A DNA stretch of 64,000 bases from Nitrososphaeraceae archaeon (GTDB lineage Archaea; Thermoproteota; Nitrososphaeria; Nitrososphaerales; Nitrososphaeraceae): the NCBI GenBank assembly GCA_031316115.1, contig JALDRC010000004.1, positions 1 to 64,000 on the forward strand. Reading direction: 5' to 3'. Made by a program: the position numbers and the translations under genes. Below the pieces are notes generated by a model. The model made no database searches. It saw only the letters and a program-made list of their open reading frames with translations, and had not been told where the DNA came from. This document shows positions 29,401-61,699 of this stretch, piece after piece (position 1 is the first letter of the stretch; each line of letters starts with the position of its first letter).

Positions 29401-29498
29401 AATACTTCTCAGTATGTAGTAAAATATTATTAAATTTCCTTAGGAGATTGAATTTTTTTTTATTAAGCAGAACTGATTTCAATACTATTATATATCTA

Positions 29499-31592: not shown

Positions 31593-32489
31593 ATGGTCAA
31601 CATATTTAATATACTTATTACTGGTAGCAAAGGTTTTGTAGGGGAAAATATTTGTAAAAGTTCCTTTAATAATAAATATAATTTAATAACAGATAATCAC
31701 AAAGATGATCAAATAAATGATATAACAAAATTAGAATATTTCGATAATTTTAGTGATAAAATAGACTTAATAATTCACCTCGCTGCAAAAACCTCAATAA
31801 ATGATTCATTAAACAATCCTTATGAAACTTATTATAAAAATATAGTAGGTACTTTAAATCTACTTGAATTTGCTAAACGAAAAAATATAACCAATATTAT
31901 TTTTTTAAGTACATATGTATATGGAAAACCACAATATCTTCCAATAGACGAAAATCATCCTATTAATCCTCATTCTCCTTATAATAAAAGTAAAATAATA
32001 GCTGAAAGTTTATGCGAAGATTATTCGAAAATCTTTGGAATTGATATTGTTATTTTGAGGCCATTTTATTTATATGGTTATAATAGAAAAAAAAACACAT
32101 TGATTAGTTCTATTTTGGATCAAATTAATACTAATAAAATAATAAAACTTAGTAATAAAAAAACTAGCAGAGATTTCCTGTACATTAGTGACTTTATTGA
32201 ATTATTAAATAATATAGTAAATGCATTCCCGTCAGGGTATAATATCTATAATGTTGGATCTGGTACAAGCTATACTTTAACGGAAATATCCATGAGAATT
32301 GCTAATTTATTAAATAAAAAAGTACGGATCTGCTATGACGAGTCAATACGCAAACAAGATATAAATGAGATGGTTGCTGATATAACCAAAATATCTAAAG
32401 ATTTTGATTGGAAACCTAAAATAGATATTGACCAGGGCCTATCATTAACAATAAAAAGAAGTAACGATGAAAAAGAGAACGGTAAGTAA
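31593..32489 (+). CDS. NAD-dependent sugar epimerase/dehydratase (extended SDR)
   Basis: 298 residues. Nucleotide-binding motif GSKGFVG at 11-17, HLAAKTS after beta4, catalytic Ser/Thr in STYVYG at 106-111, Y130-x3-K134 (YNKSK) and LRPFYLYG. This is the UDP-glucose 4-epimerase-like branch of extended SDRs. It is shorter than GalE proper (about 320-340) and has a reduced first 40 residues. It presumably makes a nucleotide sugar for surface glycan assembly together with the enzyme at 35186 and the glycosyltransferase at 33061. Confidence 0.85.
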   Translation: MVNIFNILITGSKGFVGENICKSSFNNKYNLITDNHKDDQINDITKLEYFDNFSDKIDLIIHLAAKTSINDSLNNPYETYYKNIVGTLNLLEFAKRKNITNIIFLSTYVYGKPQYLPIDENHPINPHSPYNKSKIIAESLCEDYSKIFGIDIVILRPFYLYGYNRKKNTLISSILDQINTNKIIKLSNKKTSRDFLYISDFIELLNNIVNAFPSGYNIYNVGSGTSYTLTEISMRIANLLNKKVRICYDESIRKQDINEMVADITKISKDFDWKPKIDIDQGLSLTIKRSNDEKENGK

Positions 32490-33060
32490 CTACCCATTTT
32501 CAACGTTATAATATATAAATGATTATAAAAGAATTAAAACGAAATAGATAAAGAATCAATTGTATATTCTTAGAATTAGTTTATTTTTTATTTCTAACAC
32601 TCCCTAATGCAATCACCGTTTCCATATCTATCCCAGTACTCTGACTAGTATCTATGATCATCAAAATCAATAAACAACTTAAATTCTGATGCCATATTGG
32701 TATAAATTACAAAATGTATAAAAATTATATCTGGTCTTATTTTATTCTCTTGTTGAATTGCTTTTTATTTACAAGAACAATAGTAAGGTAATCCTCCTAT
32801 GAAATAGTTAGTTCACTCCAGATTATAAATTTTTGAAAAAAAATTTGAATCATAAAATTTCTCATACTAGTTCTTTACTTTTAAAAATGCTTTTTCTTAT
32901 TTCCAAGCAGTAAGAGAACTTTCAGAATAAAGGAATATTCATTTAAGCCAAAACAAAGGGTCGACTATAAAGGAACTGATAAATAAGAAATAAAAAAAAG
33001 ATTTAGTATGACAGTAATAGATTAGTAAAAAACAAATTTAACTTACAAATGTATTGCATT
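32490..33060. other. intergenic, nothing recognised
   Basis: 571 bp of AT-rich DNA without a supported gene; some stretches near 32600-32720 look like old coding debris that I could not assign. Confidence 0.4.
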
Positions 33061-33951
33061 GTGAAAATAGCTCATATTAATAATACATCTGGACTTGGCA
33101 CAAAAATTTCAAAAGAGCAAGAAAAAAAATATAATCACCAGACCAAGGTTTTCGTTTTTAGTGATATTGTATCCAAACAATTTGGAGGTGAAAAATATAA
33201 TTATAATTCAAGATTTTCAAAATTTAAATTTTTCAATGAAATAAAAAATTTCGATGTTTGGCATTATCATTATCCATATGGATCATTAAAGTCTAGTTTA
33301 GAAAAAAAGAAAAATAAGGACAATAATAAAATTTTGATAAAGCATTATCATGGTTCGGACTTGCGTGGAAAATTTGAAGATGAGCAATGTTTTGTTTCAA
33401 CTCCAGATCTCTTAAAATTTGCACCAAATGGCATATGGATTCCTATTGCTATTGATGTAGATGAAATACTCAGGTATGATAAAAGACTGAAAAGGAACAA
33501 CGAGGTTAAAAAAATTGCACATTATCCATATTATAAAATCAGAAAAACACATGGAGATAACTATAGTAAGACACTTAATATAATCAAGAATGAATACAAC
33601 TGTGAGATTGTAGAAATTATTAATGTTAAACATAACGAGGCAATATCCCTAATTTCTGAATGTGATATTGTAATAGGGAAAATCATGCCAGAAATGGGAT
33701 GGTTTAGTACATTTGAATTAGAAGGAATGTTACTAGGAAAACCGGTTATTGCATATGTTTCTAATGGATTATATGAAAAATATAAACCACCAATATACAT
33801 AACAACAAAAGATACTTTTGAAAAGGATCTTGTTAATCTATTAGAAGATGAGAAAATGCAAAAAAAATTAGCTGTAGAGGGAAAGACATATGTTTGTAAT
33901 ATGCATGCAGTAGACAAAGTTGTAGATATGATAGAAAGATACTATAGATAA
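33061..33951 (+). CDS. glycosyltransferase (GT-B, group 1-like)
   Basis: 296 residues from GTG 33061, which gives the typical start (V/M)KIAHINNTSGLG; an in-frame ATG lies 12 nt upstream at 33049. The N-terminal part has WHYHYPYG and KHYHGSDLRG, the C-terminal part has GKIMPEMGWFSTFELEGMLLGKPVIAY, the donor-site loop of GT4-like enzymes, then KDLVNLLEDEKMQKKLAVEG. The acceptor and sugar are unknown. It is flanked by two epimerase genes in the same orientation, forming the core of a small glycan locus. Confidence 0.8.
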   Translation: MKIAHINNTSGLGTKISKEQEKKYNHQTKVFVFSDIVSKQFGGEKYNYNSRFSKFKFFNEIKNFDVWHYHYPYGSLKSSLEKKKNKDNNKILIKHYHGSDLRGKFEDEQCFVSTPDLLKFAPNGIWIPIAIDVDEILRYDKRLKRNNEVKKIAHYPYYKIRKTHGDNYSKTLNIIKNEYNCEIVEIINVKHNEAISLISECDIVIGKIMPEMGWFSTFELEGMLLGKPVIAYVSNGLYEKYKPPIYITTKDTFEKDLVNLLEDEKMQKKLAVEGKTYVCNMHAVDKVVDMIERYYR

Positions 33952-35185
33952 TTCTACATTTGTCAAATTTCTGTAATTAAAAATTATCAATCCGCTAATC
34001 AATTTATTTATTAATTATGTTCCAAGCATGTATTTGATTGCTTTGGATTGTCTTTGTTAGTTTTACAATTATGATGTACGAGTATCTGATATAGAATCTC
34101 TGAAAATAGTAAGCACACAGCACATCCCATTTTTACAATATTCTCTTTATGTAATAGATTTATCCTAAAGAAGGTTGTATGTGTTTTATGAATTATTCAT
34201 TTGAAGTACCTCTGAGGGAATAAATAGTATGTCCGAGGTTATATTCTTAATATTCCCTCTCTTTTATCTTGTCTGAAGATATATTTCGATATTATCTTAC
34301 ACAACATATCAACAGAATAAACAAATGTTCCATGATTGTTCAAATCATGATCATAATTTGCCATCTATAAAGTTCTTTTATTGTCAAAACAGACCTTTGA
34401 TCCTATTATTTATTATAAATAGGAGTCTAGTATATATGCAGTTGTAAACTCAATCACCAGAAATACAAGAATAGAACCTATAGTTCTGTATCTGTGAAGT
34501 AATTTGTATCCAAATACTTAATTCTTTGCGTGACTGAATTCCTACACTCTTTCAGTATCGGAACCAGAACATGGTAATACTTTTTTCATAAGATATATTG
34601 TAATATATAGGATCTTTAACTTTACAATATTACTCCATGTTTCTAGAATAGACAAAACTGTTATGTGACCATCAACAAAAAAGTTAATGTATTGCAATAG
34701 ATCTATTTTTAATATCTTTAGATATTACAGAAGTGCATCAAATGTATATCTTGGTTTTTTGGATAGTCCAATTCCTTTATTTATCTTCCCATTTTGCGTT
34801 ATTTCAATTGGACTGCATTTATGGAAAACTCTATGTGAATCTAATTTAAAGCAAAGCTATATTTATAAGATCTCATAAAAGTTGGAGGATAAACATACCG
34901 TCTAACAAATCTCGTTTCTTCTCTTGCTGTTATATTGACAACAAAACAAACTAACCAATATAAAACTCCATTTAGAACAAAGCAGATCTTTTATTCTGTG
35001 GTACTTAGATTTGGATTATAGTTTTCACAAAGACACCATACAACGATAGCCTAACTTTATTTCTTATGAAACAAGAATAATTATGACAAAGCCTAATATG
35101 ATCATAATGGTTTTTTAAAGTATTTTAGATTTTTTTACATAAAGAGAAAATATTTTAATTGCCTATTATCTCTATTTTCAGAAGT
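33952..35185. other. 1.2-kb intergenic, unassigned debris
   Basis: No gene can be supported. A 63-codon frame at 34687-34878 is hydrophobic but lacks a ribosome binding site, and its neighbourhood has the look of decayed DNA. No IS6 or IS481 ends were seen here. Confidence 0.4.
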
Positions 35186-36154
35186 ATGAAAATTCTTATT
35201 ACGGGAGCTGCCGGTTTTTTGGGAAGTCATTTATCCGAAAAATATGTAGGGGAAGGACACACAGTATATGGGATTGATAACATTAGTAATGGAAATTTGA
35301 ATAACATTCGAACTCTTTTACATAAAAAGAATTTTAAATTCATTTATGATGATATCAGAAAAAGTGATATATATACTAAAATTCCAAATGACCTAGATGC
35401 AGTTATCCATCTAGCTGCTCAAATTCATGTGGACAGATCAATTGTTAATCCTGAAGAAACTTTTGAAATAAATGTAAATGGGACATTAAAGATATTGGAA
35501 TATTGCCGAACTAATGATATCGATAAAATCTTGTTTGCATCTACAAGTGAGGTATATGGTTCAGCACAATATGTACCAATGGATGAAAAACATATCCTTG
35601 GTGCACAACATCCATATGGAGTAAGCAAAATAGCTGCAGATAGACTTTGTTATACATACAATGAAACATATGATCTAGGAGTAGATATAATTAGATGTTT
35701 TAATTTTTATGGACCTAGACAAAAAGATACTGGTTATGGTGGAGTAATCGCGATTTTTATCAACAGAGTGTTACAGAATAAACCTCCTCTGATATATGGA
35801 AGTGGCGAACAGACAAGAGACTACACTTACATTAGTGATGTAATAAATGCATATGATTTAATTCTTAAAACCAAAGGTAATCCGGGCAAAAATGGAATAA
35901 ATTTCGGTTCAGGAAGCGAGATATCTGTAAATAAAATAGCAGAAGTAATTATAGATAAATCTGGGATGAACAATAACCAGAAATTGAAACCCCAATACTT
36001 AGAATCGCGTCCTGTTGAAGTTCAAAGATTATTTGCTGATATAACTCGCTCAAAAGAATTATTGAATTTTAAACCTATGATATCATTTGAAAACGGAATC
36101 GAAATGTTAATTGAATGGTATAAAAACTTCAAATCAGAATTATGGACGTTTTGA
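35186..36154 (+). CDS. NAD-dependent epimerase/dehydratase (GalE/RmlB-like SDR)
   Basis: 322 residues from ATG 35186; the frame is open upstream to a TTG at 35159, but MKILITGAAGFLG is the family start. Motifs: GAAGFLG at 7-13, D31-N32 after beta2, HLAAQIHVDRS, S119-T-S-EVYG and Y144-x3-K148. RCFNFYGPRQ and GSGEQTRDYTYISDV are typical of UDP-sugar 4-epimerases and related dehydratases. It is full length, unlike the shorter SDR at 31593. Together they point to at least two nucleotide-sugar conversions. Confidence 0.92.
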   Translation: MKILITGAAGFLGSHLSEKYVGEGHTVYGIDNISNGNLNNIRTLLHKKNFKFIYDDIRKSDIYTKIPNDLDAVIHLAAQIHVDRSIVNPEETFEINVNGTLKILEYCRTNDIDKILFASTSEVYGSAQYVPMDEKHILGAQHPYGVSKIAADRLCYTYNETYDLGVDIIRCFNFYGPRQKDTGYGGVIAIFINRVLQNKPPLIYGSGEQTRDYTYISDVINAYDLILKTKGNPGKNGINFGSGSEISVNKIAEVIIDKSGMNNNQKLKPQYLESRPVEVQRLFADITRSKELLNFKPMISFENGIEMLIEWYKNFKSELWTF

Positions 36155-36670
36155 GGAAATCCTAATTTTGTTAATTTTATGTAACTATTAATAAATTGAA
36201 AATCATTATAAATTTAACTATAAATTTATTTACTAATTTTGCAGAGTATAAATATTTTCAATCATCGATTTCAATATTTTCTAGAATTTAATTATCGCTT
36301 CTTTTTCAATCTAACAATTTGATAAAAGGTATGATAATACTTGAATATCCTAAATACCAATTTTGTAAATGAATCACTTTACCTTACCTACGGATCGAAT
36401 AAATAGAAGAATATTTGAAATAGGATATTGGGTTGTATCCTCCGTTGGATAGGATTCTACTACATTGTGTATTGCTATTATAAGAAACTTAAATTAAAGG
36501 AAATATTCAAAATATATTAAATCCTTAAGAACTTTTCTAAGGAAAGAATAAAATCGATAGAGGTATAAAACTCAATTTCACCTTAGCAAAATAAATAGTC
36601 CAATTTATACGATAGATTAAAAACTTAAAAAAAATAAAGTTTTGAGATTTAAAAACTAATCAAAAAAAAT
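36155..36670. other. intergenic, nothing recognised
   Basis: 516 bp between two convergent genes, AT-rich, no supported feature. Confidence 0.45.
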
Positions 36671-37366
36671 TCAAGACCTTACTTTCCCTCTACTTCGATC
36701 GTAAAGAATCTTGTTCTTGTTTGCTGCAACGTGATCCATTACCGGTTCTTTGTCATTAAGTGTTATTTTTTCAGGTGTTTCTTGACTTGTTGTCGTATCA
36801 CCAGAAAATGTAGGACTGTGATCTTGTAGATTTCTATCATTTAATTCATTCTGTACTAACTCTCTTACTTGACTTGCAGTAACAATCACTTTTTCTGGCT
36901 CGTTCTTTTGTTTTATTTTTGTTTTTTGTTTAGTTGAAACTAATGAAGAAGATCTCTTTTGTTTTTGGTTTTGTTGTTGTTGCTTCTTATCTGTTGGTAT
37001 TTTCTTCTCTGTAGTTCTTCCTGTTGATTTATTTTGAACGGATTTTGTTATTTTCTTTGTAACTGATTTTGCTATGTCTTTTGCTACAGGAAATGAAACG
37101 CCTGCCCTACTTACAGTTTTAGTAAGCCTATCTGTATCAAATTTTTCCTCTCTACCAGTTGATCTTTTTACATAGATAGATTTACTCCCTTTAGAATTGA
37201 TTTTTGATTTAGTATCTGTAGTATTTTTAGTTTTTTTGGTTTTATGGCTATTTGGAAAATTAGAAGTTAAATTAGATTTTGATACTTGTTTCTTTTTGTT
37301 CTTGGTATTATTTTTTACTTTTTTTTCTTTTCCACTATTTTTTTGTTTTGAAGTCTTTTTTATCAA
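36671..37366 (-). CDS. Lys-rich protein with a split ATP-cone domain
   Basis: 231 residues, strongly basic. Residues 1-62 are a Lys/Asn/Ser-rich disordered tail. Residues about 63-106 (YVKRSTGREEKFDTDRLTKT and onward, SRAGVSFPVAKDIAKSVTKK) match the first two-thirds of an ATP-cone (PF03477). Residues 107-159 are a Gln/Lys-rich insert, and 160-179 (VIVTASQVRELVQNELNDRN) match the ATP-cone's last helices. ATP-cones sense nucleotide level in NrdR and ribonucleotide reductases. There is no zinc ribbon or reductase here. The basic tail suggests nucleic-acid binding. Confidence 0.65.
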   Translation of the reverse strand: MIKKTSKQKNSGKEKKVKNNTKNKKKQVSKSNLTSNFPNSHKTKKTKNTTDTKSKINSKGSKSIYVKRSTGREEKFDTDRLTKTVSRAGVSFPVAKDIAKSVTKKITKSVQNKSTGRTTEKKIPTDKKQQQQNQKQKRSSSLVSTKQKTKIKQKNEPEKVIVTASQVRELVQNELNDRNLQDHSPTFSGDTTTSQETPEKITLNDKEPVMDHVAANKNKILYDRSRGKVRS

Positions 37367-38801
37367 TTTTACTTATTATTATAAATTATATTAATTGCAA
37401 ATTTAAGTATTTTTAAAAATAATGTTTATTTATTTTAAAATTAACATTGTCAATATATTGCTAATTAGAAGTCTCAATTTAGAATGAATTCATTCAATAT
37501 AATTTGAGAAATAATATGTATTACATATAATAGTAACTCAATTTAGATAATATGATCTCCGCTCAAAATATATTGCAAGGACTGTAATAAAAATTGTCAG
37601 AACAATCAAAGTGAAACCATTATTAATGGATAAACCTATTAAAAATTAATAAATTCCATTTTCTTGCTTTCCACATCAAGTAGTTTTTTAATACAATGTT
37701 TTTTGATATGTTTAGAAATTTTAACAGAACCATATAAGAAGTAATAACGTTACAATTATTGGTATTCACGATATTGAAATTCAACTTTGATTAATTTATG
37801 GGAAAAGTCTTAATTATTCATAGATCAATTCAAATTGGTGATGCAGAGAACATTACTATCTAAAGTGAGCCTAACTAACATGATTTCCGTATTCAAGGCT
37901 TGATTTGAAGTCATTATATGCTCTTATTGATTGCTTCATCGAGAAGAATGACAGCTATAAAAGGTCTAAATACAGAATAAGCTTCATGTTCTGAATGCAA
38001 ATCTCTCAAAACATAGTGATGAATTGGATCATGTTGAATTTCACATTGATATGATGGATAGAATTCATGTCCGAGATTTAGATATCTGATCAGAATGATT
38101 ATCCAAGTTAGTTTTTGTTGAAGCAACATAACCCTTCAACTGGCGTTTGTTTATCGTTTTACCCATTGAAGAAAAAATACTAGATAAAATGATTGTTCTA
38201 CATCAATAAGATGCAATAAAAATAAGCTAGAGAGAAGCTAAGGAGATGGTGAATAAGATACAAAATGCGTGTAACTAAGGACAAAACCTAACCGATACCA
38301 ACAAAAATATTCATATATGTTGAACCAGAGGAAGTGTTCAAAGATAGAATCATCTGTTTTAGATTAATTAAAAAATTTATTTAGTTTATATGCTTCAACA
38401 TATTATAATTATTTCGCATTTACAAATGTTACATATTGATTAATAGTTTGGTCTGAATTACTCGAATACAAGTAACTATAGGAGCATAAGAGTAACATAC
38501 AACAACATCAGAATTCAAAATTCATTTTTCCAAAAGTGATATTCATCATATCCTTTAAACAAAACCTTTTCCATAAAACTGTTACATTAATTTTCCGAAA
38601 TGACCAGATCTTCAATTAAAGCAATATATCAAAACAAGAAAAAGAAAAAATGATAAAATTAAAGATTACCCATTCTCAGGTTATTTTCTGTCTAGATAAA
38701 TTAAAAGATATTTTTTCGATAATGAAGAAATAATCAAACTAAAGGAAAATGATATTGGAGGCATGAGTAATGCTACTACTATCTATCCTATAACATAAAA
38801 A
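37367..38801. other. 1.4-kb intergenic with unassigned debris
   Basis: A 71-codon minus-strand frame at 37914-38129 (containing HDPIHHYVLRDLHSEHEAYS) has a coding-like composition, but I recognise no family and see no clear start context. The rest shows no gene, RNA or IS end. Confidence 0.35.
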
Positions 38802-39545
38802 TTAGTCATCATCATCTTTATCAATACTTTGCAATTCAAAAGAATTAACTGTATTGTTTGCTGTGTTTAGATAAATAGAAAATTCTATTGGAATTGTTTC
38901 ATATTTTAATGCATATGCTTTATGAAGATGATCTTTTAATTCACTTTTTCCATTATCATCATCAATAACAGTCCAAATTTCCATTACCTTGATTGTTTTA
39001 TCCTTTTCTTTGCCAGTATTATCAGAATAGGTGTAAATTACTTTATATGCAGGTAATTCATCAACCATCACATTCGGATTAGATTCAATTATCTTAAAAT
39101 CAGTCAATTCTAATTTATATGAAGAGATTTTAGAATTGGTATATTGTGCTAAATCCATTTCATCTGGTAAATTATGAACACTTACAGCAAATCTTTTATC
39201 TGAATTATAACATAAAAATGTATTATTGCTGTTACTAACCATTGTCTTAATTTGATCTGATGGAATTTGTTTTAAAGTTGAGTTAGGGCAAAATATTACA
39301 ATCTTATTTATGCCAACCTCGTTATCATTTTTTATTTTCTTTTCAAATTCTTCAATTTTCCAAGTAGAAGGATATTCTATTTTTACTCCAAATATAGAAT
39401 TTTCATATTCCTTCATATTTTCTATTGACTCCTGAGCAAAAATTAATGGTGATGAGTTAATAATACAAAAAACTGTAAATAAAACAGCGACAAGAGCTAT
39501 AATTATATACTCTGCATTAGTTGGATGAGCGTATTTTTTTATCAT
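38802..39545 (-). CDS. membrane-anchored PsbP-like protein
   Basis: 247 residues. One N-terminal membrane helix (AEYIIIALVAVLFTVFCIIN) then an extracytoplasmic domain starting YENSIFGVKIEYPSTWKIEEF. The 'GVkIxYPxxWk' opening and the length are those of PsbP-like domains, frequent in thaumarchaeal exported proteins. The C-terminus is a run of Asp. Role unknown; no photosynthesis is implied. It is isolated, with its ATG at 39545. Confidence 0.75.
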   Translation of the reverse strand: MIKKYAHPTNAEYIIIALVAVLFTVFCIINSSPLIFAQESIENMKEYENSIFGVKIEYPSTWKIEEFEKKIKNDNEVGINKIVIFCPNSTLKQIPSDQIKTMVSNSNNTFLCYNSDKRFAVSVHNLPDEMDLAQYTNSKISSYKLELTDFKIIESNPNVMVDELPAYKVIYTYSDNTGKEKDKTIKVMEIWTVIDDDNGKSELKDHLHKAYALKYETIPIEFSIYLNTANNTVNSFELQSIDKDDDD

Positions 39546-39669
39546 ACTTCTGATAGTGAATTAGACAAGAATTTTAATCATTGCACTTTAAAATTTTCAT
39601 TCACTTGGTATTTATTGTTTGACCTCGTAGATTTGATAATGATCACAAAATTCAGTATATTCAACAAGC

Positions 39670-39960
39670 AATATTAACGAAAGAGCTTTAGCTATTACCT
39701 TTCTATTCTAATAATATATGTTGTTGAAATTTGTAGGAAATAGAACATCCGCTATTGCTGTAATGTATCCAGAGTATTTGTACTTTCTTGGTTTGAGTTT
39801 AAGGAATACGTCTAAAGCACTGGAACTGTTCAAGGATCAAAAAAGAAGTTAGGTTGTAGTTTGGAGGTGGATTCAATGATTTGGATCCTTTCAGATCTAT
39901 AAATAGAAAAGAGTTTCTGTATTCATCATCGAGGAAACAAACATTGAGCTTGTAGTAAAT
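39670..39960 (+). mobile_element. IS6-like 5' fragment
   Basis: The start part of the transposase is readable: YLYFLGLSLRNTSKALELFK and DQKRS, nearly identical to the intact copy at residues 21-45, then stops. The remaining two-thirds is missing. An adjacent left end, ACGAAAGAGCTTTAGCTAT, matches the intact element's end region. Confidence 0.7.
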
Positions 39961-40139
39961 ATTTTTAGCATATATATTGATATGAAATTGTACTCTAGTA
40001 TAGAACAAATGATCCCAGAGATTATTTATACTAGTATAGATAATACTGCTCTTAAATTGGAACGAATATTTTTATCCATCCTTTTCTTTGACTATCAAAA
40101 ATATTATATAAGTTGAACGCCCTACCAGATAAGGTTAAG

Positions 40140-40149
40140 TATTTAAAAA
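40140..40149 (+). promoter_or_regulatory. TATA box for 40168 gene
   Basis: TATTTAAAAA lies 19-28 nt before the TTG start at 40168, fitting a leaderless transcript. Confidence 0.45.
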
Positions 40150-40167
40150 AGATAAGAATTAATAGAA

Positions 40168-40896
40168 TTGTTTCCTTACTTTATTACCATTATTTTAATT
40201 GCTATTGTCATTATATGTACATTATTTGTATTTTCTATAAATAATATTTCATCAGATAATATTGACTCTGGTATAACACTATTTCAAGAAAACAAAATAA
40301 GTGATAGTAAAATTAAAGATTTAAAAAATGATACAAAACTTGTTACCCTTTATAAAACTAACTTAGTTCCTGAAATTCGAGATTACCATGATATTCTTTC
40401 TACTGAAGTAAGTAAAGTCGATAATAATAAACTCCTGTTCACTATAGAATTAGATGAAGATGCTAACTACAATAAAGATTATGAGACGGTATACATTTGG
40501 TTATTGTTTGATGTCATTACTAGTACGATTTCGGATAATGGTAATAGTATAGATGATGATTTTTCTATGTTAAATAAACAAAATCAAGTATATACATTGA
40601 TTATTCCAAATTTTGGAGTAGATTCAAAGTTTGGAAAAGATGTTGGATGGTATTTGGCAATATTCAATAATACAGATAATTCCTATACTCTACCCTTATC
40701 TAGAATTTCTAATATGCCAACAAATAAAGTTCAAGTTTTTATTGATCCTATATTCATTGGAAATCCTTTAAAGTTTAATTATGTTGTTTCCTCTATGATT
40801 AGAGTCAATAATACTTTCTTAGATAAACCACCAGATTATCTGATAGATACTGTTCCTGATAATTATGAATCATTCTGGAAACAATGGTTTAAATAA
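40168..40896 (+). CDS. membrane-anchored extracytoplasmic protein, unknown
   Basis: 242 residues from TTG 40168. An N-terminal signal anchor (FITIILIAIVIICTLFVFSI) is followed by a domain rich in Asn, Asp and beta-strand (LLFTIELDEDANYNKDYETV, YIWLLFDVI, DVGWYLAIFNN), with no cysteine pattern. It is one of several exported proteins of unknown function in the window. A TATA box directly upstream supports the unusual TTG start. Confidence 0.7.
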   Translation: MFPYFITIILIAIVIICTLFVFSINNISSDNIDSGITLFQENKISDSKIKDLKNDTKLVTLYKTNLVPEIRDYHDILSTEVSKVDNNKLLFTIELDEDANYNKDYETVYIWLLFDVITSTISDNGNSIDDDFSMLNKQNQVYTLIIPNFGVDSKFGKDVGWYLAIFNNTDNSYTLPLSRISNMPTNKVQVFIDPIFIGNPLKFNYVVSSMIRVNNTFLDKPPDYLIDTVPDNYESFWKQWFK

Positions 40897-40941
40897 TAAT
40901 TTTATTAATTCGAAACGTAAACATAATTTAGTTAAAAAAAA

Positions 40942-41656
40942 GGCTGTGTTACCTTAAGACTAATTCACCTCCAATTTTAAACAGAATTAGTCTTCCGATT
41001 CTTGTATTATATAAATAAATAGAGTTTAATCCAATTGTATACATGTTGTAGACCTTAATTATTCATACTCTTTTGGTGGACACGTGAATAGTAATCATCA
41101 AAACCTTCTATCCTATCCTTAAAATACTTCATAACTCTTTCAATCAGACTTTTCTTCAAAGGAGAATATGATCTATATTTTAAATGTAAAAGGATACATG
41201 TTTTTAGATATCCTATACCTCCATCTGTGTAAACAATATGTTTTCCATATTTTTTAATTAATGACCTAAGAATTTTTCGACAAAAAGCATATTTCTTTCC
41301 TCTGAGATATAGATTCCAAGTACTGAAGAGTGAATTGGTTCTATGCAAAAACAGAACCAGAAAGGTAGTTTACCCGTCTGTATAACAGTTTCATCTATGA
41401 TAAAAGCAAATACCCTTTTCTTTTTGCAGATCTGAGAGGAACCAAACAAGTGTATCCTATTACAAACAGAAACATGACTTCTTTTATTATCTCTAAATAG
41501 AATTAATGCTTTATATATGTCACTTAGACCAAGAAAATATAGATAAAGAGAATACATCACAATAAAAGAAGAGGTTTTATTCATTTCAAATAATTTTATT
41601 CATATCATATTTAGAACATTCTTAGCGTTAGCTTTGGCTGCTTATCTTAATAAAGA
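40942..41656 (-). mobile_element. IS6-like element with frameshifted transposase
   Basis: 715 bp with both ends still readable (GGCTGTGTTACCTTAAG on the left; the complement of GTCTTTATTAAGATAAG on the right). This is the best preserved of the dead copies. No convincing 8-bp target duplication remains. Confidence 0.85.
41055..41584 (-). pseudogene. frameshifted IS6-like transposase
   Basis: The first part (41258-41584) runs from YSLYLYFLGLSDIYKALILF through FIIDETVIQTG to a stop. The second part (41055-41348), in another frame, carries KKYGKHIVYTDGG and KKSLIERVMKYFKDRI. One frameshift near 41270-41350 separates the first catalytic Asp from the second Asp and the Glu. Confidence 0.85.
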
Positions 41657-42184
41657 CGATTTATCATAAGATGTGAATTTTCTCTTTCTAATTCATCTTA
41701 TCTTTGTACGTGTACTGTTCCAATAATAAAGGAGAATATAAAAAAATACAATCTTAAATATTGCAACTACTACTAACATAAATACAAATAGTGCACTTGT
41801 TATTGTAATCATCACATTTATTATACCTACTATTTAATAATAAATTAAATTGTATCCAACGAACTAATGATTCAAGTTTTTTTTAACTATAAAGTTTTGA
41901 AAAAAAATCTTTTAAAAATAACTGCAGTAATATAACGATCAAGAAAATCTGTATATTCTCATTATTAAGTGATATCAATAAGTTAATTAGTAGACACAGT
42001 CTAGAAAATCACTTACCTGAAGAAGTTGAATAAAAATTACTTCAGTGTTCAAAATTTAGACCTTATACAAAAACAAATGTAATATGATTCCAAAGAACTC
42101 AATTTCTAGTAGATTATCAATAGATTTTGGAGATAAAGTGTTTACTAATTAAAATAAATAAACTTATTATTTATTTAATACTTA

Positions 42185-42190
42185 TCTAGT
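42185..42190. repeat. flank hexamer of IS481 copy 2 (TCTAGT = ACTAGA reversed)
   Basis: Immediately left of copy 2 on the plus strand. In the element's own orientation this reads ACTAGA, the same as the left flank of copy 1. Confidence 0.8.
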
Positions 42191-43240
42191 TGTTGTACTT
42201 GTATACATAGGTAACAGATTCACTTACCAACATGGGTAACACTTTTTATCTGCTTGATTTTCTTGTTACCATTATAACTATTTAATCTTCCTTTTATAAG
42301 AAACATTTCAGATGGTGTATGACCACCTATACCACCATGTTCTCTTTCTTCATTGTATGCTTTGACAAACATGGAATACATTATTTTTCCATCTTCTACA
42401 TTAGGAATATTTTCTACTGCTAGAAACTCATTCTTTACAATCTTGTTATATGCTTCAATTTTTCCCTGTAATTGTGGATATCTAGCAGGTATGGATTTAT
42501 CTTTTATATTGTTACGTCGTAGAAAACGTCTGAATATCTTGGATGTAAACTGTTTACCATTATCATGCATTACCTTTTCTGGTTTACCATTATCTACTAT
42601 GTAGTCTTCCAGTACATCTATTACATCTACACTCCTTTTTCTCTCAGTCCATTCACTTGCTATCTTTCTTGAACAATCATCTTCACAACTGATAACATAG
42701 TTCTTTTGAGCACAATTCTCTATGTAAAATGGTCCTAAAATGTCCATCTGTACCATTTGATTAGGTTTTTTCATTGCAAATCTTTTGTATTTTCTGTGTC
42801 TGATTTTACATGAAAAGATATTCAAACCATGTCTTTTCAGTATATTGTATATGGTTCTGGTACTTAGTGATACCTCCTTTAGTCTTTTTAATCTGAATTT
42901 TATACGATTGCATCCAAATCTTTTTGTTGTACGTAAATTTAGTATTTCCTGTTCTATCTCTTTTGTTACTTTTCCAGGTTGGATATTATGAGGTTTTGTA
43001 CTTTTATCATGTAAACCTTCTATTCCATACTTTAGGTACCTGTTTTTCCACTTGTAGTATATCTTTCTAGATATCTGATATCTAATACAGATATCAATTA
43101 CAGTATCTCCAGGCCATTCTTTTTCATGAAGTAAATTATATTTTGTTTGTAAATCTATTTCCTATAAACTTCCTAGCAGAGCTAGAGAGTGTTACCCATG
43201 TCAGTAAATGAAATTGTAACCTATGTGTGTAAGTACATCA
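42191..43240 (-). mobile_element. IS481-like element, copy 2
   Basis: 1,050 bp, the reverse complement of copy 1 (28109-29158); all stretches I compared were identical, including terminal repeats and the 201-residue product. The flanks are those expected if the interval between the two copies has been inverted. The 530 bp to its left (41657-42184) shows no supported gene. Confidence 0.92.
42220..42825 (-). CDS. IS481-like transposase (integrase core), copy 2
   Basis: 201 residues, identical to the product at 28524-29129, with the same D28, D88 and E124 catalytic residues and the same upstream open frame lacking any usual start codon. Confidence 0.85.
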   Translation of the reverse strand: MNIFSCKIRHRKYKRFAMKKPNQMVQMDILGPFYIENCAQKNYVISCEDDCSRKIASEWTERKRSVDVIDVLEDYIVDNGKPEKVMHDNGKQFTSKIFRRFLRRNNIKDKSIPARYPQLQGKIEAYNKIVKNEFLAVENIPNVEDGKIMYSMFVKAYNEEREHGGIGGHTPSEMFLIKGRLNSYNGNKKIKQIKSVTHVGK

Positions 43241-43246
43241 ATTAGT
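43241..43246. repeat. flank hexamer of IS481 copy 2 (ATTAGT = ACTAAT reversed)
   Basis: Immediately right of copy 2. In element orientation it reads ACTAAT, the same as the right flank of copy 1. Confidence 0.8.
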
Positions 43247-44328: not shown

Positions 44329-45507
44329 ATGAGAATCCTTATGGTTTGTACAGAATATCCTCCAATGTTAGGAGGTTTAGGTAGATATACTTACAATCTC
44401 ACAAACCATTTAAAGAACCACAATATAGACATATCAACTGTATCCAACCAAGCAGGAAATGGTACATATACAGGACTTTTCCCTGGCAATATCAATAATT
44501 CAGATGCATTTCTTAGATATTGCAAAACAACAAGATCCCAATATTGTTCATTCAACTGAACATGGATTGTACGGTCTATTTATAGATCCTCTAGTCCCAA
44601 ATAAAATTGCTTCTACAATTGATAAATTAATATTATGTGCAAAATACCAATAGTTACTACTTTTCATTCTTCCTATACTTTCAAACAATGGATGAATTTA
44701 CTTATCCTATCAGGAACAATCAGGGAAAAATGAACAAGTTAGATATTGGTTTACAACTGCTATCAAAATATTGGAAACATCTCATAAACTATAGATCTTT
44801 TCATGATTATAACAACTATATAATGAAAAAGAGTCATACAGGAATAGTTTTTCACACTATATGGCAAATCTAATTCCAGGTTAAAGTGATATATCATGGG
44901 GCAGAACCTTGTATTCAATTAATAGATAAAAAAGAAATAAAAGAAAGTTGGTTTACCAGGAAAATGGAAGGATAAGGTGATTTAAAATGGATTTTTAACA
45001 TCTACAAAAGGATGGGATATTATCAAGAAAATGAATATTCCAGATAACTGAGTATAGTGATGAATCATTCAAAAGGTATATTATAGTAATGAAATAATAA
45101 ATTTAAACAAGATAAAATCTACAAAACAATTAACTTGAATGTTTGTTTACCAGATACAGAATTATCTTTGTTACCATATGCATCTGATGTGTTACTACTT
45201 CCTTACAAAGTAACTTCGTGGGATTCAGTGTCGCGTTTGATGGATTAGCACATGGGTTACCTTTTATTGCTTCTTGGATTTAGATTTCTTCAAAGAATTT
45301 TCTAAAAAAGGTTTGGGGATATGTAAAAGAAATGCAGAGAAATTTGCAAAAGCATTAGTGGAAATAGATCAATATTACGAAAAATTTGCGATTAATGTAG
45401 AGATATTCAAAAATATGCTTAAATGGGATTTTCATATGTTTCAACATATTGAGGTTTATGAAAGGGTTATTGCAGACAAGAAACTACAGCTACCACCAAG
45501 TAACTAA
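44329..45507 (+). pseudogene. decayed glycosyltransferase family 4 gene
   Basis: ATG 44329 with a ribosome binding site (AAAGGAGATG) starts the typical GT4 N-terminus MRILMVCTEYPPMLGGLGRY. After about 60 codons the frame breaks. Later pieces in other frames still match the family: HSTEHGLYGLFI, LPDTELSLLPYASDVLLLPY, VTSWDSVS and the tail LDFFKEFSKKGLGICKRNAE to 45507. At least four lesions. The original would be about 390 residues. It lies just outside the inverted block that holds the intact glycan genes. Confidence 0.8.
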
Positions 45508-45957: not shown

Positions 45958-46680
45958 TACTTAGGTTACAATTTCATTTACAGACATTGATATCACTTTC
46001 TAGTAATCTGCTAAGAAATTTATACAAAAGAGAATTACAAACAAAATACAATTCAATGCATGAAAAAGAATTGACCTGAGATACAAAAACTGATATCAGT
46101 ACTGGGTAATAGATATCAGAAAAATAATACTAATAGAATAATCTGCTCCTAATGTATTCAACAAATGTCTTCAAGGATATAAGTAAAAAACCTCGTAATA
46201 TACAAGCTGGAAATGTAAGACCTAATCTAATGGTACAGATGTATATATTGCGATCATTTTATCTTGAAAAATATGATCAAAAGAACTATTTTATCAGTTG
46301 TGAAGATGACAGTTCAAGACAGATAGCAAGTGAATGATATGCGACAAAAAGAAAGATGGAGGTTCTAGATGGTATTGAAGACCTCATTGTCGAGAACGGT
46401 AAACATGATAAAAAGAATACGTGATAATGGTAAATAGTTTAGGTCCAAAATATGCAAATCCTTTCTTAAAAAGAACAAAATAAAATACAAACCAATCCTA
46501 AAAAGATATTCACAACTACATGGAAAGATAGAAGCATTTAACAAGATAATAAAGAATGAGATTCTAGCAGTAGAAAATATTTCTAATGTAGATGCGAATA
46601 AGAAAATTAGATATTGATTTTACAACTAAAATGAGAGTACTTGAAACCATATCAGGTAAATTATAGATGGATAATACAAA
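45958..46680 (+). mobile_element. decayed IS481-like element
   Basis: The left end TTAGGTTACAATTTCATTTA matches the inside of the IS481 copies. Frames corresponding to the helix-turn-helix (MHEKE), PNLMVQMYIL, YFISCEDDSSRQIASE and KIEAFNKIIKNEI can be followed. About 215 bp between the N-terminal and core regions are deleted at 46218, and stops are frequent. It includes a 198-bp segment identical to one at 52383-52580. Confidence 0.8.
46021..46218 (+). repeat. 198-bp perfect inverted repeat, arm 1
   Basis: Every base of 46021-46218 equals the reverse complement of 52383-52580 (checked ten bases at a time). Identity stops sharply at both edges, although both sides belong to decayed IS481-like DNA. 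Confidence 0.97.
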
Positions 46681-46699
46681 TCATCTGATAGTGCATTCA

Positions 46700-48622
46700 T
46701 TATCTGGCACGTAATGCATTAATAATAACAGCTACATCCATTAATTCTTGAATTATTGCACCTACAGTAGGAGGAATAAATCCGAAACTTGCTATGAGCA
46801 TGAAAATAAAGCTAGCACCTAAACCAACATAAATACTTTGTTTAGCAATATGTATTGTCCTTTTACTAATATTAAGGGTGTCTACTACCTTGGTAACATC
46901 ATCTACTAATAAGACTATATCTGCTGCTTCAGCTGATATTGCAGTACCATGAGCTCCCATTGCTATTCCAACAGTTGCGACAGCTAATGCTGGAGCATCG
47001 TTGATGCCATCGCCAATCATGATAACATTTTTGTATCTTTTTTTAAGTTTTTTTATTGAATTCAATTTATCTTCTGGTAATAGATTTGCTTCAAAACTGT
47101 TAACTCCTATTTCTTGAGCAATAATTTGAGAATTTTCATAACTATCTCCACTTAATATCATTATCTCTTTTACTCCAATTGATTTGAAATTGTCAATCAT
47201 GGACTTTACACCTGTACGGATTATATCACCAAATACTATGATACCTACAGGTCTGTCATCGATATTTACAAATGCCAACATCTTTCCTTTAAATTGGTTA
47301 TTTTTTTTTAAATTTAGTATATTTTTTAACTCTTGCTTTTCAAATATATTTTCTAAAATACTTTGAGATCCTATTACAATATGTTCTCCATTAAGAAATC
47401 CTTCAACTCCGATGCCAGGTATTTCATGAAAATTATCTGGGATTGTCAATTCTCCATACTTTTCTTGGGCTTTTTTAGTAATTACCTTGGCAGTGGGATG
47501 TGATGATAATTGTTCTACACAACCAGCCTTAAGTAAAATATCATCGGAATTAACAGTATTATAAAGTGAAATTATTGTTTCAATGGTTGGAGAACCAAAA
47601 GTTATTGTACCTGTCTTATCAAATACGATAGATTCTGCTTTTCCTACCTTTTCTAGAGATAAACCACTTTTGATTATTATTCCAAGTTTAGCACATTTAT
47701 TTATTCCTCCTATTATTGCTATTGGGGTTGCGAAAATAAGGGAACACGGTGATGCTACAACCAATACTGACAAAATAGTTTCAACTTTTCCAGTGATAAG
47801 GAAACCAAAAAAACTAATAAAAATTGTAATAGGAGTGAACCAGATTGCATATCTGTCTGCAATACGTTGAATTGGAGCTTTTTCTTCCTGTGCTTTTCTA
47901 ACCATCGTGACTATTTTAGAGTATTGACTTTCTTCACTCAATTTATCAGCTATCATTTCAAAAGCATCTCCAACATTGACAGTGCCACTGAAAAGCAGGT
48001 CACCTGCTTTTTTCGTTTTTGGTATTGGTTCTCCTGTTAATGCTGATTCATCTACTACTGATCTGACTATTGTGGCGTTATTATTACCAATAATAAGATG
48101 TCCATCTATTGGTATCAAGTCACCGGGACGTACGACAAGCACGTCACCAATCTTTATGGAATTAACATCAATTTCTTCTATCATATTATTTTTCTTCCTA
48201 TGCGCTTGTCGTGGTGAATTTGCTAAAAGAGCATCGAGAGATGCTGTGACTTTCCTAAATGCGTAATCTTCTAATGCTTTACCTCCTGATTGCATTATTA
48301 CAATTACTACTCCTGGCAGTGCCTCATTAGATAAAATAGCAGTAATTATTGCAAGCATTGCAATAATATCTGTGGCAAAACGTCTATGAATTATGTCACG
48401 TATAGTCCAAAATATAATTGGTATACCCCCGATAAGCAAGGTTCCAATCCAAATCCAATGCCCAATATGCTCATTATAAAACCAATGAAATAAACTTCCA
48501 AAAATTAAACCTATTATTGCGAAAATTGGAATAGGATATCTTTTTATAAATATAAGAAAAAATTTATTGAATGTTAAATTCAAATCCTTTATATTATCAA
48601 AGGGTTTATTGTTGTAACGCAA
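46700..48622 (-). CDS. heavy-metal translocating P1B-type ATPase
   Basis: 640 residues from TTG 48622. Actuator TGE is in DESALTGEP (191-199), the ion-binding helix has SPC at 291-293, phosphorylation site DKTGT (D335), nucleotide-binding HP at 375-376 and hinge GDGINDAP at 537-544. The last helix carries QELMD (625-629). There is no N-terminal CxxC metal-binding domain. SPC instead of CPC is the signature of the P1B-4 (Co/Fe/Ni) group, but the HEGGT partner motif is absent, so the metal is uncertain. Probably exports a transition metal across the cytoplasmic membrane. Confidence 0.92.
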   Translation of the reverse strand: MRYNNKPFDNIKDLNLTFNKFFLIFIKRYPIPIFAIIGLIFGSLFHWFYNEHIGHWIWIGTLLIGGIPIIFWTIRDIIHRRFATDIIAMLAIITAILSNEALPGVVIVIMQSGGKALEDYAFRKVTASLDALLANSPRQAHRKKNNMIEEIDVNSIKIGDVLVVRPGDLIPIDGHLIIGNNNATIVRSVVDESALTGEPIPKTKKAGDLLFSGTVNVGDAFEMIADKLSEESQYSKIVTMVRKAQEEKAPIQRIADRYAIWFTPITIFISFFGFLITGKVETILSVLVVASPCSLIFATPIAIIGGINKCAKLGIIIKSGLSLEKVGKAESIVFDKTGTITFGSPTIETIISLYNTVNSDDILLKAGCVEQLSSHPTAKVITKKAQEKYGELTIPDNFHEIPGIGVEGFLNGEHIVIGSQSILENIFEKQELKNILNLKKNNQFKGKMLAFVNIDDRPVGIIVFGDIIRTGVKSMIDNFKSIGVKEIMILSGDSYENSQIIAQEIGVNSFEANLLPEDKLNSIKKLKKRYKNVIMIGDGINDAPALAVATVGIAMGAHGTAISAEAADIVLLVDDVTKVVDTLNISKRTIHIAKQSIYVGLGASFIFMLIASFGFIPPTVGAIIQELMDVAVIINALRAR

Positions 48623-49923
48623 ATAGAGATATATTTTTCTATTGAAAGATTTATAATTTCTTCGGCTTTATAGAAAAAATCTAGAAGGGACAAACAAATT
48701 TACCATTCTATAAGTATTATGCTTTATTTATCTTTAGAGCGTTTATAGGCACTAACAATTATCCAAAATAATATGAAAATTATCATTTTATGAAAATTAT
48801 GTGTAGGACATATGAAAATCAATTAGCTATTCTAGATTCCTATTAAATATGATTTTATATATTCTTCAAATAAACTTATTATGATAGACATGATGGTCTC
48901 ATCCTTGTTCCCCATGATGGTATAGTATGCTACTGTAACCATGTTTCATCTTCTTTTTATATACACCATTAGTCTTCCAGACAGGTACCTATTCCTACCT
49001 TGCAAGTATGATGATATATCCATGCTTTTTTTCATGTACCCATACATATGGTTTTGCTATTTATCGTATCATTTTTATGCAACTACAGTTGTTTTTTTTA
49101 TTTTCTATATTTTGTTGCAATGGGTGTAAAATTAACATTATCTTCTTTGGTTAGATAGTGTCTTATCTTTACATGGCAGACAATCTGCACTAGTACATCA
49201 ACACCAAAATATATTTTGACATATTCAGTTCTCAATTTTGGCACGATGGTGTAGCATAGTGAGGCACATATGATTTTGTTTCCAATTTTCTGTAGTATAG
49301 TATAATGTGGTATTTTTGATAATTATAAAAATAAGCTAAGAAAAAAATAATTCATTTTGTAAACAACCTATTACTTTTTTCTTCATACTATATAATTGGC
49401 AACAAGTACAATAGATTGCCAACTATTATAGAATTTATTGCTTTTTCTATGCAGATTCAGTGGTACTATATTGTTTTTTTTAAAAATGCGACAACTGTTC
49501 AAATCCTAGATACTTTGATTGTTTTTATTTATTTTACAATAGGTTACTGTAGAATGTTGTCAAATATGATAGTTTCTTAGTGTATCTATCTTTTCAATAT
49601 TATTATCAATCCATGTGAGAGCATAAAGCTTTTGAAAATTATAACAGGTTATAATGGTAGTTTTTTACTGCTATTGGGAGTAAATAAAATAACGAAAGAG
49701 GTATTATCAAAAAATATGCTCAATTAGGGATACAAATTGGATACTATTTTTAATATTTATGTGTATACTTGATATATAGTTATATAAAAGTAACATTGAC
49801 TTTTCATAAAATGGATATTGTTAACTTAATGTTTATTTTTATCGTTGTGATTCTAAACAAACAAAGATTTTATTTAAAAAAATATGAAATCAAGAGTTCG
49901 GAGAATATCCCATTTTAATTCTT
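48623..49923. other. 1.3-kb intergenic, unassigned debris
   Basis: No supported gene. On the minus strand around 48900-49240 there are coding-like pieces (for example YGYMKKSMDISSYLQGRN and SADCLPCKDKTLSNQRR) broken by stops, suggesting an old element I could not classify. Confidence 0.35.
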
Positions 49924-50067
49924 GTGTTTCTTATATTGTATTCATTTTTAAAAAAGAGATATGAAATATTCAATAATAGATTAAAATCTATTTGTATCGA
50001 TATTATCAATAAATTTGATGATCTGATATTTATTGGGATAATCGATGAGAATTCAAGATTATTAACA

Positions 50068-50075
50068 GAAAAACA
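50068..50075. repeat. 8-bp target duplication, left (GAAAAACA)
   Basis: GAAAAACA directly left of the miniature IS; identical 8 bp at 50372-50379 directly right of it. Confidence 0.9.
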
Positions 50076-50371
50076 TGCGTTGTTGTATAACAAATTACTG
50101 CTAATACATTTAGCTGACTTGTTATAGTCATATTATGTGAGACATTGGAATAATTACAATGAATCTCTAATAAGGAGAGGAGAGATATTACTTGATTTTG
50201 ATATTATTGATAATTGGTATATTGAATTAGAAGAGATTAATGAAGGTAAGGAAGAAAGAAAATTTGTATATCCCGGTTCTTTTATCAAATTATTAAGGTA
50301 CATGAGAGTTACATAATTGTTAATTATATGAGAATAAGAAAGATTGTTTAAGCGAGTTGTACAACAAAGCA
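50076..50371 (+). mobile_element. miniature IS5-like element (internally deleted)
   Basis: 296 bp. The ends (TGCGTTGTTGTATAAC and, inverted, TGCTTTGTTGTACAAC) match those of the 999-bp element at 61914-62912, and the flanks are a perfect 8-bp duplication. Inside, only the transposase N-terminus is readable: LIRRGEILLDFDIIDNWYIE, then KFVYPGSFIKLLRYMRV, followed by a jump straight to the right end. It is non-autonomous and would depend on a related transposase. Confidence 0.85.
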
Positions 50372-50379
50372 GAAAAACA
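50372..50379. repeat. 8-bp target duplication, right (GAAAAACA)
   Basis: Identical to 50068-50075. From 50426 to 50891 there is no supported gene. Confidence 0.9.
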
Positions 50380-50891
50380 TGAAAATAACCCCAATAGTTT
50401 GATCGAATTAATTCTCAGGTTATAAACCATGTGCGATCTATAAAGTTTGAGACTTCTAAACGATAATATCGATTATACGAGAATAATAAGGTCAGGGTAT
50501 ATTAGAATAACAAAGAATAAATTAAAACCTATTTTAATTCCAAGACCAAATTACAAAAAGTATCTGTATCTTTACGGAATCTTAGGGATCTACTGATGAT
50601 TTCCTAGATGTAGTACAAGTTTTCAATACGACTTATCTGTTCAAATAATAATTTAAATTAATACAGCCCAACAAAAATCTGATGAGTGGAATATCGAGAA
50701 AATATTCCATCGTTATCAATTTATTAACTATTGAAATTTCGTATCCAAGTAATAACCACTTACTTTTTATAAGCTTAAAGCAGATCCCAGATTGATTTAT
50801 GTTCAATTTGGACTCTATATCTCTATAGAAATTGATGCTCAATTTATTTTATCATATAGTAAAGTTCCAAAATGTACTTAAGGACATCTGC

Positions 50892-52142
50892 TCATATAGC
50901 AGCTATTAACAAATAAGAATTAAAAACAATTATTATTCCTACAAACAATAAGGCTAACAGGTTTGTAATCCTGCGATTTACGAATTCCCCCATCAAATTC
51001 CTATCTCTAGTAAAAATTATCAGTGGTATCATAGGCAGTGGAAGCATAATACTTAATATTACTTGACTGTATACTAGTATATTCAGCGGATCTATTCCTA
51101 AGAATATAGCTATTGTTGTTGGAATAACATTAATAAATCTTGTAACAAATCTTCTAAACCATACATTCACTTTTTTTCCAAGTAATCCTTCCATAATAAC
51201 TTGACCAGCAAGTGTACCTACAACCGATGATGCAATACCTGAAGAAAGAAGTGTAAAGACAAATACTATTCCAGATATTGTTCCAAATAAAGGTATTAAA
51301 GTTCTATAAGCTTCAGAGATCGAAGATACTGTAGAATGAGGGTAAAATGCCGCTGCAGCCATTATCAATATAGCTGCATTTACAAAACCGGCCATGGTTA
51401 ACAGTAGGATAATTTCTAGAAGATGATATTTTCTTAAACGCCTTTTTTCTAAAATTGACTTATTTTCCGATTTGTTCTTTGTGAGCCAAGAATGTAAAAA
51501 GAGTGCATGAGGCATAACAGTCGCCCCGATAATTCCTACTACAAGAAACAGAGAATTACTTGTTGTTAGTGATGGAACAAAAGAATGATACACAACCAGA
51601 TATGGATCAGGAGATACTACAAATAATTCGTAAATATATCCAAATCCTATAATCGAAACAAAAACTATGAAAAGTCTTTCGATTAGATGAAACTTGCGTT
51701 GTGTAGCCAAAGCTAAAATTAAAACTGTATCAACTGCCCCAATTATGGCAGCATAAATCATAGGAATTCCAAATAACAAATTAAGAGCAATAACGGTACC
51801 GAGGTACTCTGCTAAATCTGTAGCAGCAGAAGCTGCCTCTGCTCCTAGCCAATATGGTATGATAAAATATTTTGATGGAAATTTTTTCCTGATTAATTCG
51901 GGTAATGTAAACCCAGTTGAAATTCCAAGTTTGCCAGACAGATATTGAAGTAACATTGCCATTCCACTTGATAACCAAACTATCCAGAGAAGATCATAAT
52001 TGAAAGAGGATCCAGCTTGAATATCTGTTCCATAATTTCCTGGATCCATATAAGCCATACTAACTAATATAGCAGGTCCAGTATATCCCATGAACTGCAG
52101 TAATGATTTTTTTTTAATGGAAAAAAAATTTGAATTTGGCAA
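50892..52142 (-). CDS. mntH: NRAMP-family divalent metal transporter
   Basis: 416 residues from TTG 52142, 11 or so membrane helices. The two metal-binding motifs are present: DPGN in helix 1 (33-36, MDPGNYGTD) and A-x2-M-P-H in helix 6 (207-212, GATVMPHALFLHSWL). Conserved TDLAEYLGT and SSGIASSVVGTLAGQVIMEG are typical. It is expected to import Mn(II) or Fe(II) with protons. The P-type metal ATPase lies 2.3 kb downstream on the same strand; both sit inside the 198-bp inverted repeat. Confidence 0.94.
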   Translation of the reverse strand: MPNSNFFSIKKKSLLQFMGYTGPAILVSMAYMDPGNYGTDIQAGSSFNYDLLWIVWLSSGMAMLLQYLSGKLGISTGFTLPELIRKKFPSKYFIIPYWLGAEAASAATDLAEYLGTVIALNLLFGIPMIYAAIIGAVDTVLILALATQRKFHLIERLFIVFVSIIGFGYIYELFVVSPDPYLVVYHSFVPSLTTSNSLFLVVGIIGATVMPHALFLHSWLTKNKSENKSILEKRRLRKYHLLEIILLLTMAGFVNAAILIMAAAAFYPHSTVSSISEAYRTLIPLFGTISGIVFVFTLLSSGIASSVVGTLAGQVIMEGLLGKKVNVWFRRFVTRFINVIPTTIAIFLGIDPLNILVYSQVILSIMLPLPMIPLIIFTRDRNLMGEFVNRRITNLLALLFVGIIIVFNSYLLIAAI

Positions 52143-52299
52143 TATACGTAATAATACAAAATATTCTACTCTACTATATATTCATAATTTTATTTTAATT
52201 GATATTTCTTTCATGAAGAAATAAACTATTGTACAATCTTTTATAGTTAATCTGATTAGAATTAACTAATGTTTGTTATTTTTGATGTTTTTCATTTGA

Positions 52300-52660
52300 T
52301 CTTTTTGAATTGAATTTAATACCATACTCTTCAAATCCTTTTGAGGTACTTTGATTCAGTATTTCTCATACATTCTTTTTTGTTACATTTCCAGCTTGTA
52401 TATTACGAGGTTTTTTACTTATATCCTTGAAGACATTTGTTGAATACATTAGGAGCAGATTATTCTATTAGTATTATTTTTCTGATATCTATTACCCAGT
52501 ACTGATATCAGTTTTTGTATCTCAGGTCAATTCTTTTTCATGCATTGAATTGTATTTTGTTTGTAATTCTCTTTTGTATACCGTTATAGTTGAATTATTA
52601 GGAAGTGTTACCTATGTTGATAAATGGAATTATTACCTATGTTATCTAGTATAAAATATA
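52300..52660 (-). mobile_element. decayed IS481-like fragment
   Basis: The N-terminal third of the IS481-like element in reverse orientation, with the end GTTACCTATGTTGATAAATGG still comparable to the terminal repeat. It contains the second arm of the 198-bp inverted repeat. The integrase core is absent. The rest of 52143-53056 has no gene. Confidence 0.75.
52383..52580 (-). repeat. 198-bp perfect inverted repeat, arm 2
   Basis: Reverse complement of 46021-46218 with no mismatch. The arms are 6.16 kb apart and enclose the P-type ATPase and NRAMP genes and the miniature IS. Confidence 0.97.
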
Positions 52661-60984: not shown

Positions 60985-61699
60985 TGTTGACTTAATACTC
61001 TTTCAAATCCAATTTTCTATATAATTGTATTTCTGATTATCGTATTATTAGAATAACTGAATAGTTTAATCCAATTGTATACATGTTGCAGATCACAATT
61101 GTTTTTACTCTTCTTGACACAAGAATAGTACTCATCAAAACATTCTGTTCTATCCTTAAAATACTGCATTACTCTTTCAATCAAACTTTTTTCCAATGGT
61201 GAATGTAATCTATGTTTGAGATGTAAAAGTTACATGCTTATGGATACCAAGTATCACCTTCTGTGTACACAACATGTTTTGCAGATTTGGATACAAGAGA
61301 TCGGATAAAATTCTCTGCTACAAACGTGTTTCTATCTTTGCATATGTAGATACCATGCCCTGATCTATGAAGTAGTTCGATACATATCCATAACCAGAAA
61401 TGTTGCTTACCACTCTGAATTATAGTTTCAACTATAATGAATGAGGAAACTCTTATACGCTTGTTATAGAATTGTAAGGATCCGAATCTTTGAATCCACT
61501 TCCAAACTGCAACATAACTTCTTTTATGGTCCTTAAACAGTTCCAGTATCTTTGATGTGTTTCTTAAACTTAGACCAAACAAGTACAAATACAAAGAATA
61601 CATAACTATACAAGTGGATGTTGTGTTTCTTTCAAATTTCAACAACATGTATTATTAGAATAGAACGTTCACAGCTAAATCTCTTTCGTTAACATCGCC
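60985..61699 (-). mobile_element. IS6-like element with broken transposase
   Basis: 715 bp with degenerate ends (GTTGACTTAATACTC on the left; the complement of GGCGATGTTAACGAAAG on the right). Well preserved inside, apart from one nonsense codon and at least one deletion. Confidence 0.82.
61238..61648 (-). pseudogene. truncated IS6-like transposase
   Basis: 136 codons from YSLYLYLFGLSLRNTSKILE through FIIVETIIQSG (the first catalytic Asp is replaced by Val) to VVYTEGDTWYP (the second Asp is Glu) and a TAA where the intact copy has CAA. The rest (EKSLIERVMQYFKDRTECFD) follows in another frame to about 61090. Confidence 0.85.

Follow-up and report, generated by a model that had tools for sequence, protein, structure and literature searches.

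Metal-transport genes between two decayed IS481-type copies

The analysed window comprises 64,000 nucleotides (positions 1 to 64,000) of contig JALDRC010000004.1 from a Nitrososphaeraceae archaeon (GCA_031316115.1). The contig has a length of 348,858 bp, the genome consists of 20 contigs with a total of 3.16 Mb. Both the genome search and the relatives of the NRAMP protein point to an archaeon of the Nitrososphaeraceae type. An intact gene for a heavy-metal P1B-type ATPase (46700-48622, minus strand; NCBIfam TIGR01525, E=1.7e-154) and an intact gene for a divalent metal transporter of the NRAMP/MntH type (50892-52142, minus strand; Pfam Nramp, E=1.7e-110; NCBIfam PRK00701 MntH, E=5.2e-135) are located between two remnants of an IS481-type element. 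Both remnants point inward, with their left ends outward. Remnant A aligns to element positions 15-275 (45959-46218) and, after a gap, to 472-846 (46217-46592), remnant B to positions 15-366 (52642-52292). The ATPase and NRAMP genes lie between inverted IS copies; a composite transposon would also have a TSD around the whole, but the outer ends of A and B are too decayed to show one. The two genes do not form a conserved unit. ATPase relatives (57-59% at the amino acid level) were found in only 4 of the 69 other genomes of the family and NRAMP DNA in one of the five other genomes of the genus, while adjacency of the two genes was found in none of the relatives examined, except for a distant Microcoleus pair.

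The intact parent element has a length of 1,050 bp and imperfect TIRs of ~66 bp (79%). Seven full-length copies are essentially identical, and older copies grade down to ~67% identity. Its 313-codon frame matched NCBIfam NF033577 (IS481) over the full length (E=4.6e-64) with 216.7 bits versus a curated cut-off of 224; the second-best family was IS3 (E=3e-33). The Pfam domains rve, rve_3 and HTH_32 were found in this transposase frame, and a D-(35)-E spacing was read from the sequence. The element generates 6-bp TSDs, seen in five other copies (e.g., ACTAAT, GATAAG, ATTAAT, GTTAGG), so that TIRs and short TSDs occur together as in IS481-family elements. The intact transposase frame (28188-29126, 313 codons) has none of the start codons ATG, GTG and TTG in the vicinity of its 5' end; with the TTG at 28524, the first start listed, only 201 aa remain. 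Two older copies, C14:369-1254 and C12:95318-96192, have the same left flank, as in a segmental duplication; the former lies at a contig end, the latter has several small deletions. A degenerate segment to the left of remnant A (44330-45492) recurs at C16:237234-238411 (94%) and C12:110217-111348 (89%) and is, therefore, a dispersed repeat.

Two intact copies of 1,050 bp, identical to each other, are found in the window (28103-43246 with flanks). Copy 1 (28109-29158, plus strand) is flanked by ACTAGA on the left and ACTAAT on the right, copy 2 (42191-43240, minus strand) in its own orientation by ACTAAT on the left and ACTAGA on the right. The 6-bp TSDs are consequently swapped crosswise (ACTAGA/ACTAAT versus ACTAAT/ACTAGA), and the chance of two such cross-matches is ~0.003 when the narrow target motif is allowed for. 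A crossover between inverted copies that inverts 29159-42190 gives exactly this pattern. We infer from the TSDs that this 13-kb block, which holds sugar-epimerase and glycosyltransferase-like genes (assigned by reading translations), was probably inverted by recombination of the two intact copies, and hence that inverted IS481 copies at this locus do recombine. A search of relatives for the uninverted order of the block yielded fragmented, non-syntenic matches only, as the relatives are too rearranged.

A perfect 198-bp patch in otherwise diverged remnants

Direct sequence comparison showed that 46021-46218 in A (plus strand) is the reverse complement of 52383-52580 in B (minus strand) at 198 of 198 positions, exactly as the first-pass annotation had reported; 6,164 nt lie between the two arms. 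The patch covers IS positions ~77-275 in both arms and is 73% identical to the intact element. Its 27% divergence, six in-frame stops and one 3-bp deletion are all common to A and B. Shared decay had already been noted for an in-frame TGA, and the same TGA, the five further stops and the 3-bp deletion were indeed found in both patches. Being so diverged and interrupted by stops, the patch was old and dead before it was homogenised. No third copy was detected in a search of the genome, the next best match being 74% identical.

Outside the patch the remnants are very different. A direct A-B alignment of 261 columns contains 18 mismatches and 2 gaps, all of them in the ~63 columns outside the patch, where A and B are only ~65-70% alike. 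The outer flank of A (45959-46020, plus strand; IS positions 15-76) is 85.5% identical to the intact element and 64.5% to B in a reference-anchored alignment; the outer flank of B (52581-52642, minus strand; IS positions 15-76) is 64.5% identical to the intact element. Inward of the patch, a deletion in A begins precisely at the edge, and the remnant resumes (46219-46592, plus strand) with IS positions ~474-846; its identity to the intact element is 76.8% over positions 490-846. The inner part of B (52292-52382, minus strand) covers IS positions 276-366 (70.3% to the intact element) and is then truncated. This agrees with the earlier description of two remnants of one element that differ strongly beyond the edges of the repeat; both are decayed IS481-type copies. 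A and B go back to two separate IS481 insertions of considerable age, inverted relative to each other and ~6.2 kb apart, each of which decayed on its own.

Using the divergence of the directly adjoining 62 columns (64.5% identity), ~70 differences are predicted per 198 bp, and the probability of finding none is ~2e-38. A chance origin of the identity is excluded. The patch is in register with both flanks in A as well as in B, so that it is a replacement and not an insertion. At the left edge, identity ends at 46021 within homologous sequence (IS position ~76). At the right edge it ends exactly at the deletion junction of A: both remnants read ...GGAAATGTAA up to this point and then continue with GACCTAATC in A and CAAAAAAG in B, while the intact element reads AAAACCTAATC from position 472 onward. 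In A, GTAA meets GACC with a 2-nt "AA" ambiguity. A deletion of 215 bp had been annotated at this edge; its position holds, its size is to be corrected to ~198 bp (IS 276-473) by comparison with intact copies. That deletion and patch are of the same length (both ~198) looks like a coincidence. Near-identity with sharp edges between diverged homologous flanks, as in a conversion tract, was thus found, with 100% identity inside and ~65-70% outside on the left; only the left edge is flanked by shared diverged homology, since homology on the right side stops at the deletion of A.

Scanning the contig for exact repeats and running self-BLAST over 1.15 Mb revealed similar mosaics elsewhere. The strongest within the contig is a second perfect inverted patch of 317 bp, which belongs to another, diverged IS family (61039-61355 versus C15:68006-68322, the latter outside the window), accompanied by 80 bp at 97.5% identity. 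Its arms are 6.65 kb apart, its flanks are 70-78% and 59-70% identical, and flank homology was confirmed by other copies. A direct repeat pair of ~75% identity at 84.8/90.0 kb contains two perfect patches of 114 bp (C15:84881-84994/90122-90235) and 74 bp (C15:85326-85399/90562-90635). The conversion process recurs in this genome. Between C1:449458 and C15 ~128827 a perfect match of 1,391 bp was observed in a 2.1-kb pair that is otherwise ~80% identical, which may represent a further conversion tract or else a recent element. For the first three contigs, patches were found in 4 of 37 close pairs versus 4 of 1223 others (p=4e-5). This short-range enrichment failed on the held-out contig C12 (0/56 close versus 9/1066). 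The pooled value of p=0.0035 comes from pairs which are non-independent, and makes a preference of conversion patches for close pairs no more than suggestive. Four apparent close matches on C12 were discarded as one tandem array, a match at c1 328112/332192 because of non-homologous flanks (57%).

Probable gene conversion and its alternatives

The best explanation for the patch is a recent ectopic gene conversion between the two dead IS481 copies, to which we assign a probability of about 0.8. The first-pass annotation had considered recent gene conversion the simplest explanation. This reading was strengthened by the similar mosaics elsewhere and by missing mismatch-repair families. A search of relatives for the same remnants had been proposed as a check. 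DNA searches with the patch, the NRAMP gene and the ATPase gene found no syntenic locus in genus or family, so the pre-conversion state was not seen there. We are aware of the fact that recombination at ~30% divergence is normally very inefficient, which counts against conversion. MutS and NucS normally restrain recombination between diverged sequences. Searches for MutS_V and NucS_C were negative in this genome, which is 98.8% complete, the same searches being positive in control genomes, and genes of the RadA/Rad51 family are present. Absent mismatch repair may have made recombination permissive, and the repair itself was probably of the RadA type.

In the proposed sequence of events, a break or stalled fork would have occurred recently within one copy and would have been repaired with the other copy as template, by which 198 bp were copied over; a crossover would not be required. 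One edge of the tract would then lie within the shared homology at IS ~76, the other where A-B homology ends, at the deletion in A. This deletion may either be older and have limited the tract or be a product of the same repair event. In a coupled variant, sequence would first have been copied from B, and the new end would then have been joined across the break by means of a 2-nt match. As 0 of 198 positions differ, divergence since homogenisation is at most ~1.5% (95% bound), which would date the event to within less than about 1.5% divergence. The donor was sought via divergence to the intact element, with a non-significant result either way, as the patch is compatible with the flanks of A (p=0.22) and with those of B (p=0.34).

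The coupled variant deserves separate consideration as break repair with end joining. It falls under the main explanation and takes B as the donor: one-ended invasion of B would have allowed synthesis of the patch of A, which would then have been joined by 2-nt microhomology to IS ~474, making patch and deletion one event. We regard it as possible, with the odds somewhat against it. The deletion begins exactly at the last identical base, with the AA ambiguity, as expected for such joining; however, an older deletion would stop any conversion tract at the same point, and the coincidence is not diagnostic. With 85.5% versus 73% for the patch, the left flank of A is much nearer to the intact element, which hints weakly (p=0.06) that the patch is foreign to A, but the comparison across all flanks of A is the non-significant one given above.

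Other accounts of the locus fare considerably worse than gene conversion. Because the genome is a 20-contig assembly, we considered that assembly, gap filling or polishing might have introduced one 198-bp stretch into both remnants. This is improbable: both arms lie deep within a 349-kb contig and keep the register of their respective flanks, several IS copies of 1,050 bp, identical to one another, were resolved within contigs, and the same type of patch occurs at several unrelated places. Polishing would have been unable to homogenise arms that differ by ~30%, since reads would not cross-map. The first-pass annotation had further proposed that the arms enclose the P-type ATPase and NRAMP genes, which is correct, and that they could support inversion of the 6.2-kb block. 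The latter is possible in principle, and no sign of it was found, with no synteny in relatives and with IS ends and TSDs too decayed to reveal a swap. An ongoing inversion of 46219-52382 that switches the metal transporters is slightly less probable still than an artefact. A perfect inverted identity of 198 bp is a usable recombination substrate, and the nearby intact IS481 copies appear to have inverted a 13-kb block; however, there is no evidence for the other orientation of 46219-52382, and the ATPase and NRAMP genes show neither synteny nor co-occurrence in relatives. Moreover, each of the two genes is complete and has an upstream region of its own, the arms lying 240 bp upstream of the NRAMP gene and ~480 bp downstream of the end of the ATPase gene, so that inversion would not obviously switch either of them. 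Nothing suggests that the patch switches the enclosed metal-transport genes. Purifying selection on a functional element (an RNA or a binding site) would hold the patch identical, but is very improbable, with no observation in its favour, given that constraint would not yield 0/198 differences with sharp edges, that other copies of the element are at least 26% different in the same region, and that neither an Rfam match nor a conserved counterpart in genus or family relatives was found.

Significance and comparison with known systems

The probable conversion event is of a known kind and follows an ordinary mechanism, in an unusual and well-documented setting. It documents, cleanly and under natural conditions, recombination between repeats that had diverged strongly, in a lineage of soil archaea related to ammonia oxidisers, for which little recombination genetics exists. 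With the patch and the swapped TSDs next door, sequencing could be used to test how often IS copies undergo conversion and inversion. As a tentative and rather unlikely generalisation, break repair in this genome, with no detectable MutS/NucS homologue, might regularly copy 100-400 bp between dispersed repeats of 65-80% identity, preferentially within ~10 kb, with the consequence that dead IS copies become mosaics and stay recombination substrates.

Literature searches on IS481 or gene conversion yielded no relevant paper for Nitrososphaera. Related processes are known from other organisms. Ectopic (non-allelic) gene conversion between IS copies has been discussed, for instance, for non-functional IS in Wolbachia wBm (PMC3196728). 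The two cases have in common that dead IS copies became identical through copying among themselves; in the present one, homogenisation is confined to a 198-bp patch, the copies were already ~30% diverged, and the host is an archaeon. Ling and Cordaux (2010; PMC3004938) reported inversions that arose by ectopic recombination of inverted IS sequences, TIR-TIR and within an IS. Inverted IS-borne repeats are likewise the recombination substrates in our window; however, the patch itself shows conversion, and a crossover is deduced only for the neighbouring intact pair. Finally, archaeal gene conversion is known from polyploid haloarchaea (Haloferax volcanii), where it takes place between genome copies (PMC11276520). 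In Haloferax volcanii it is allelic, between copies of the chromosome, whereas the conversion proposed here is between dispersed, diverged repeats.
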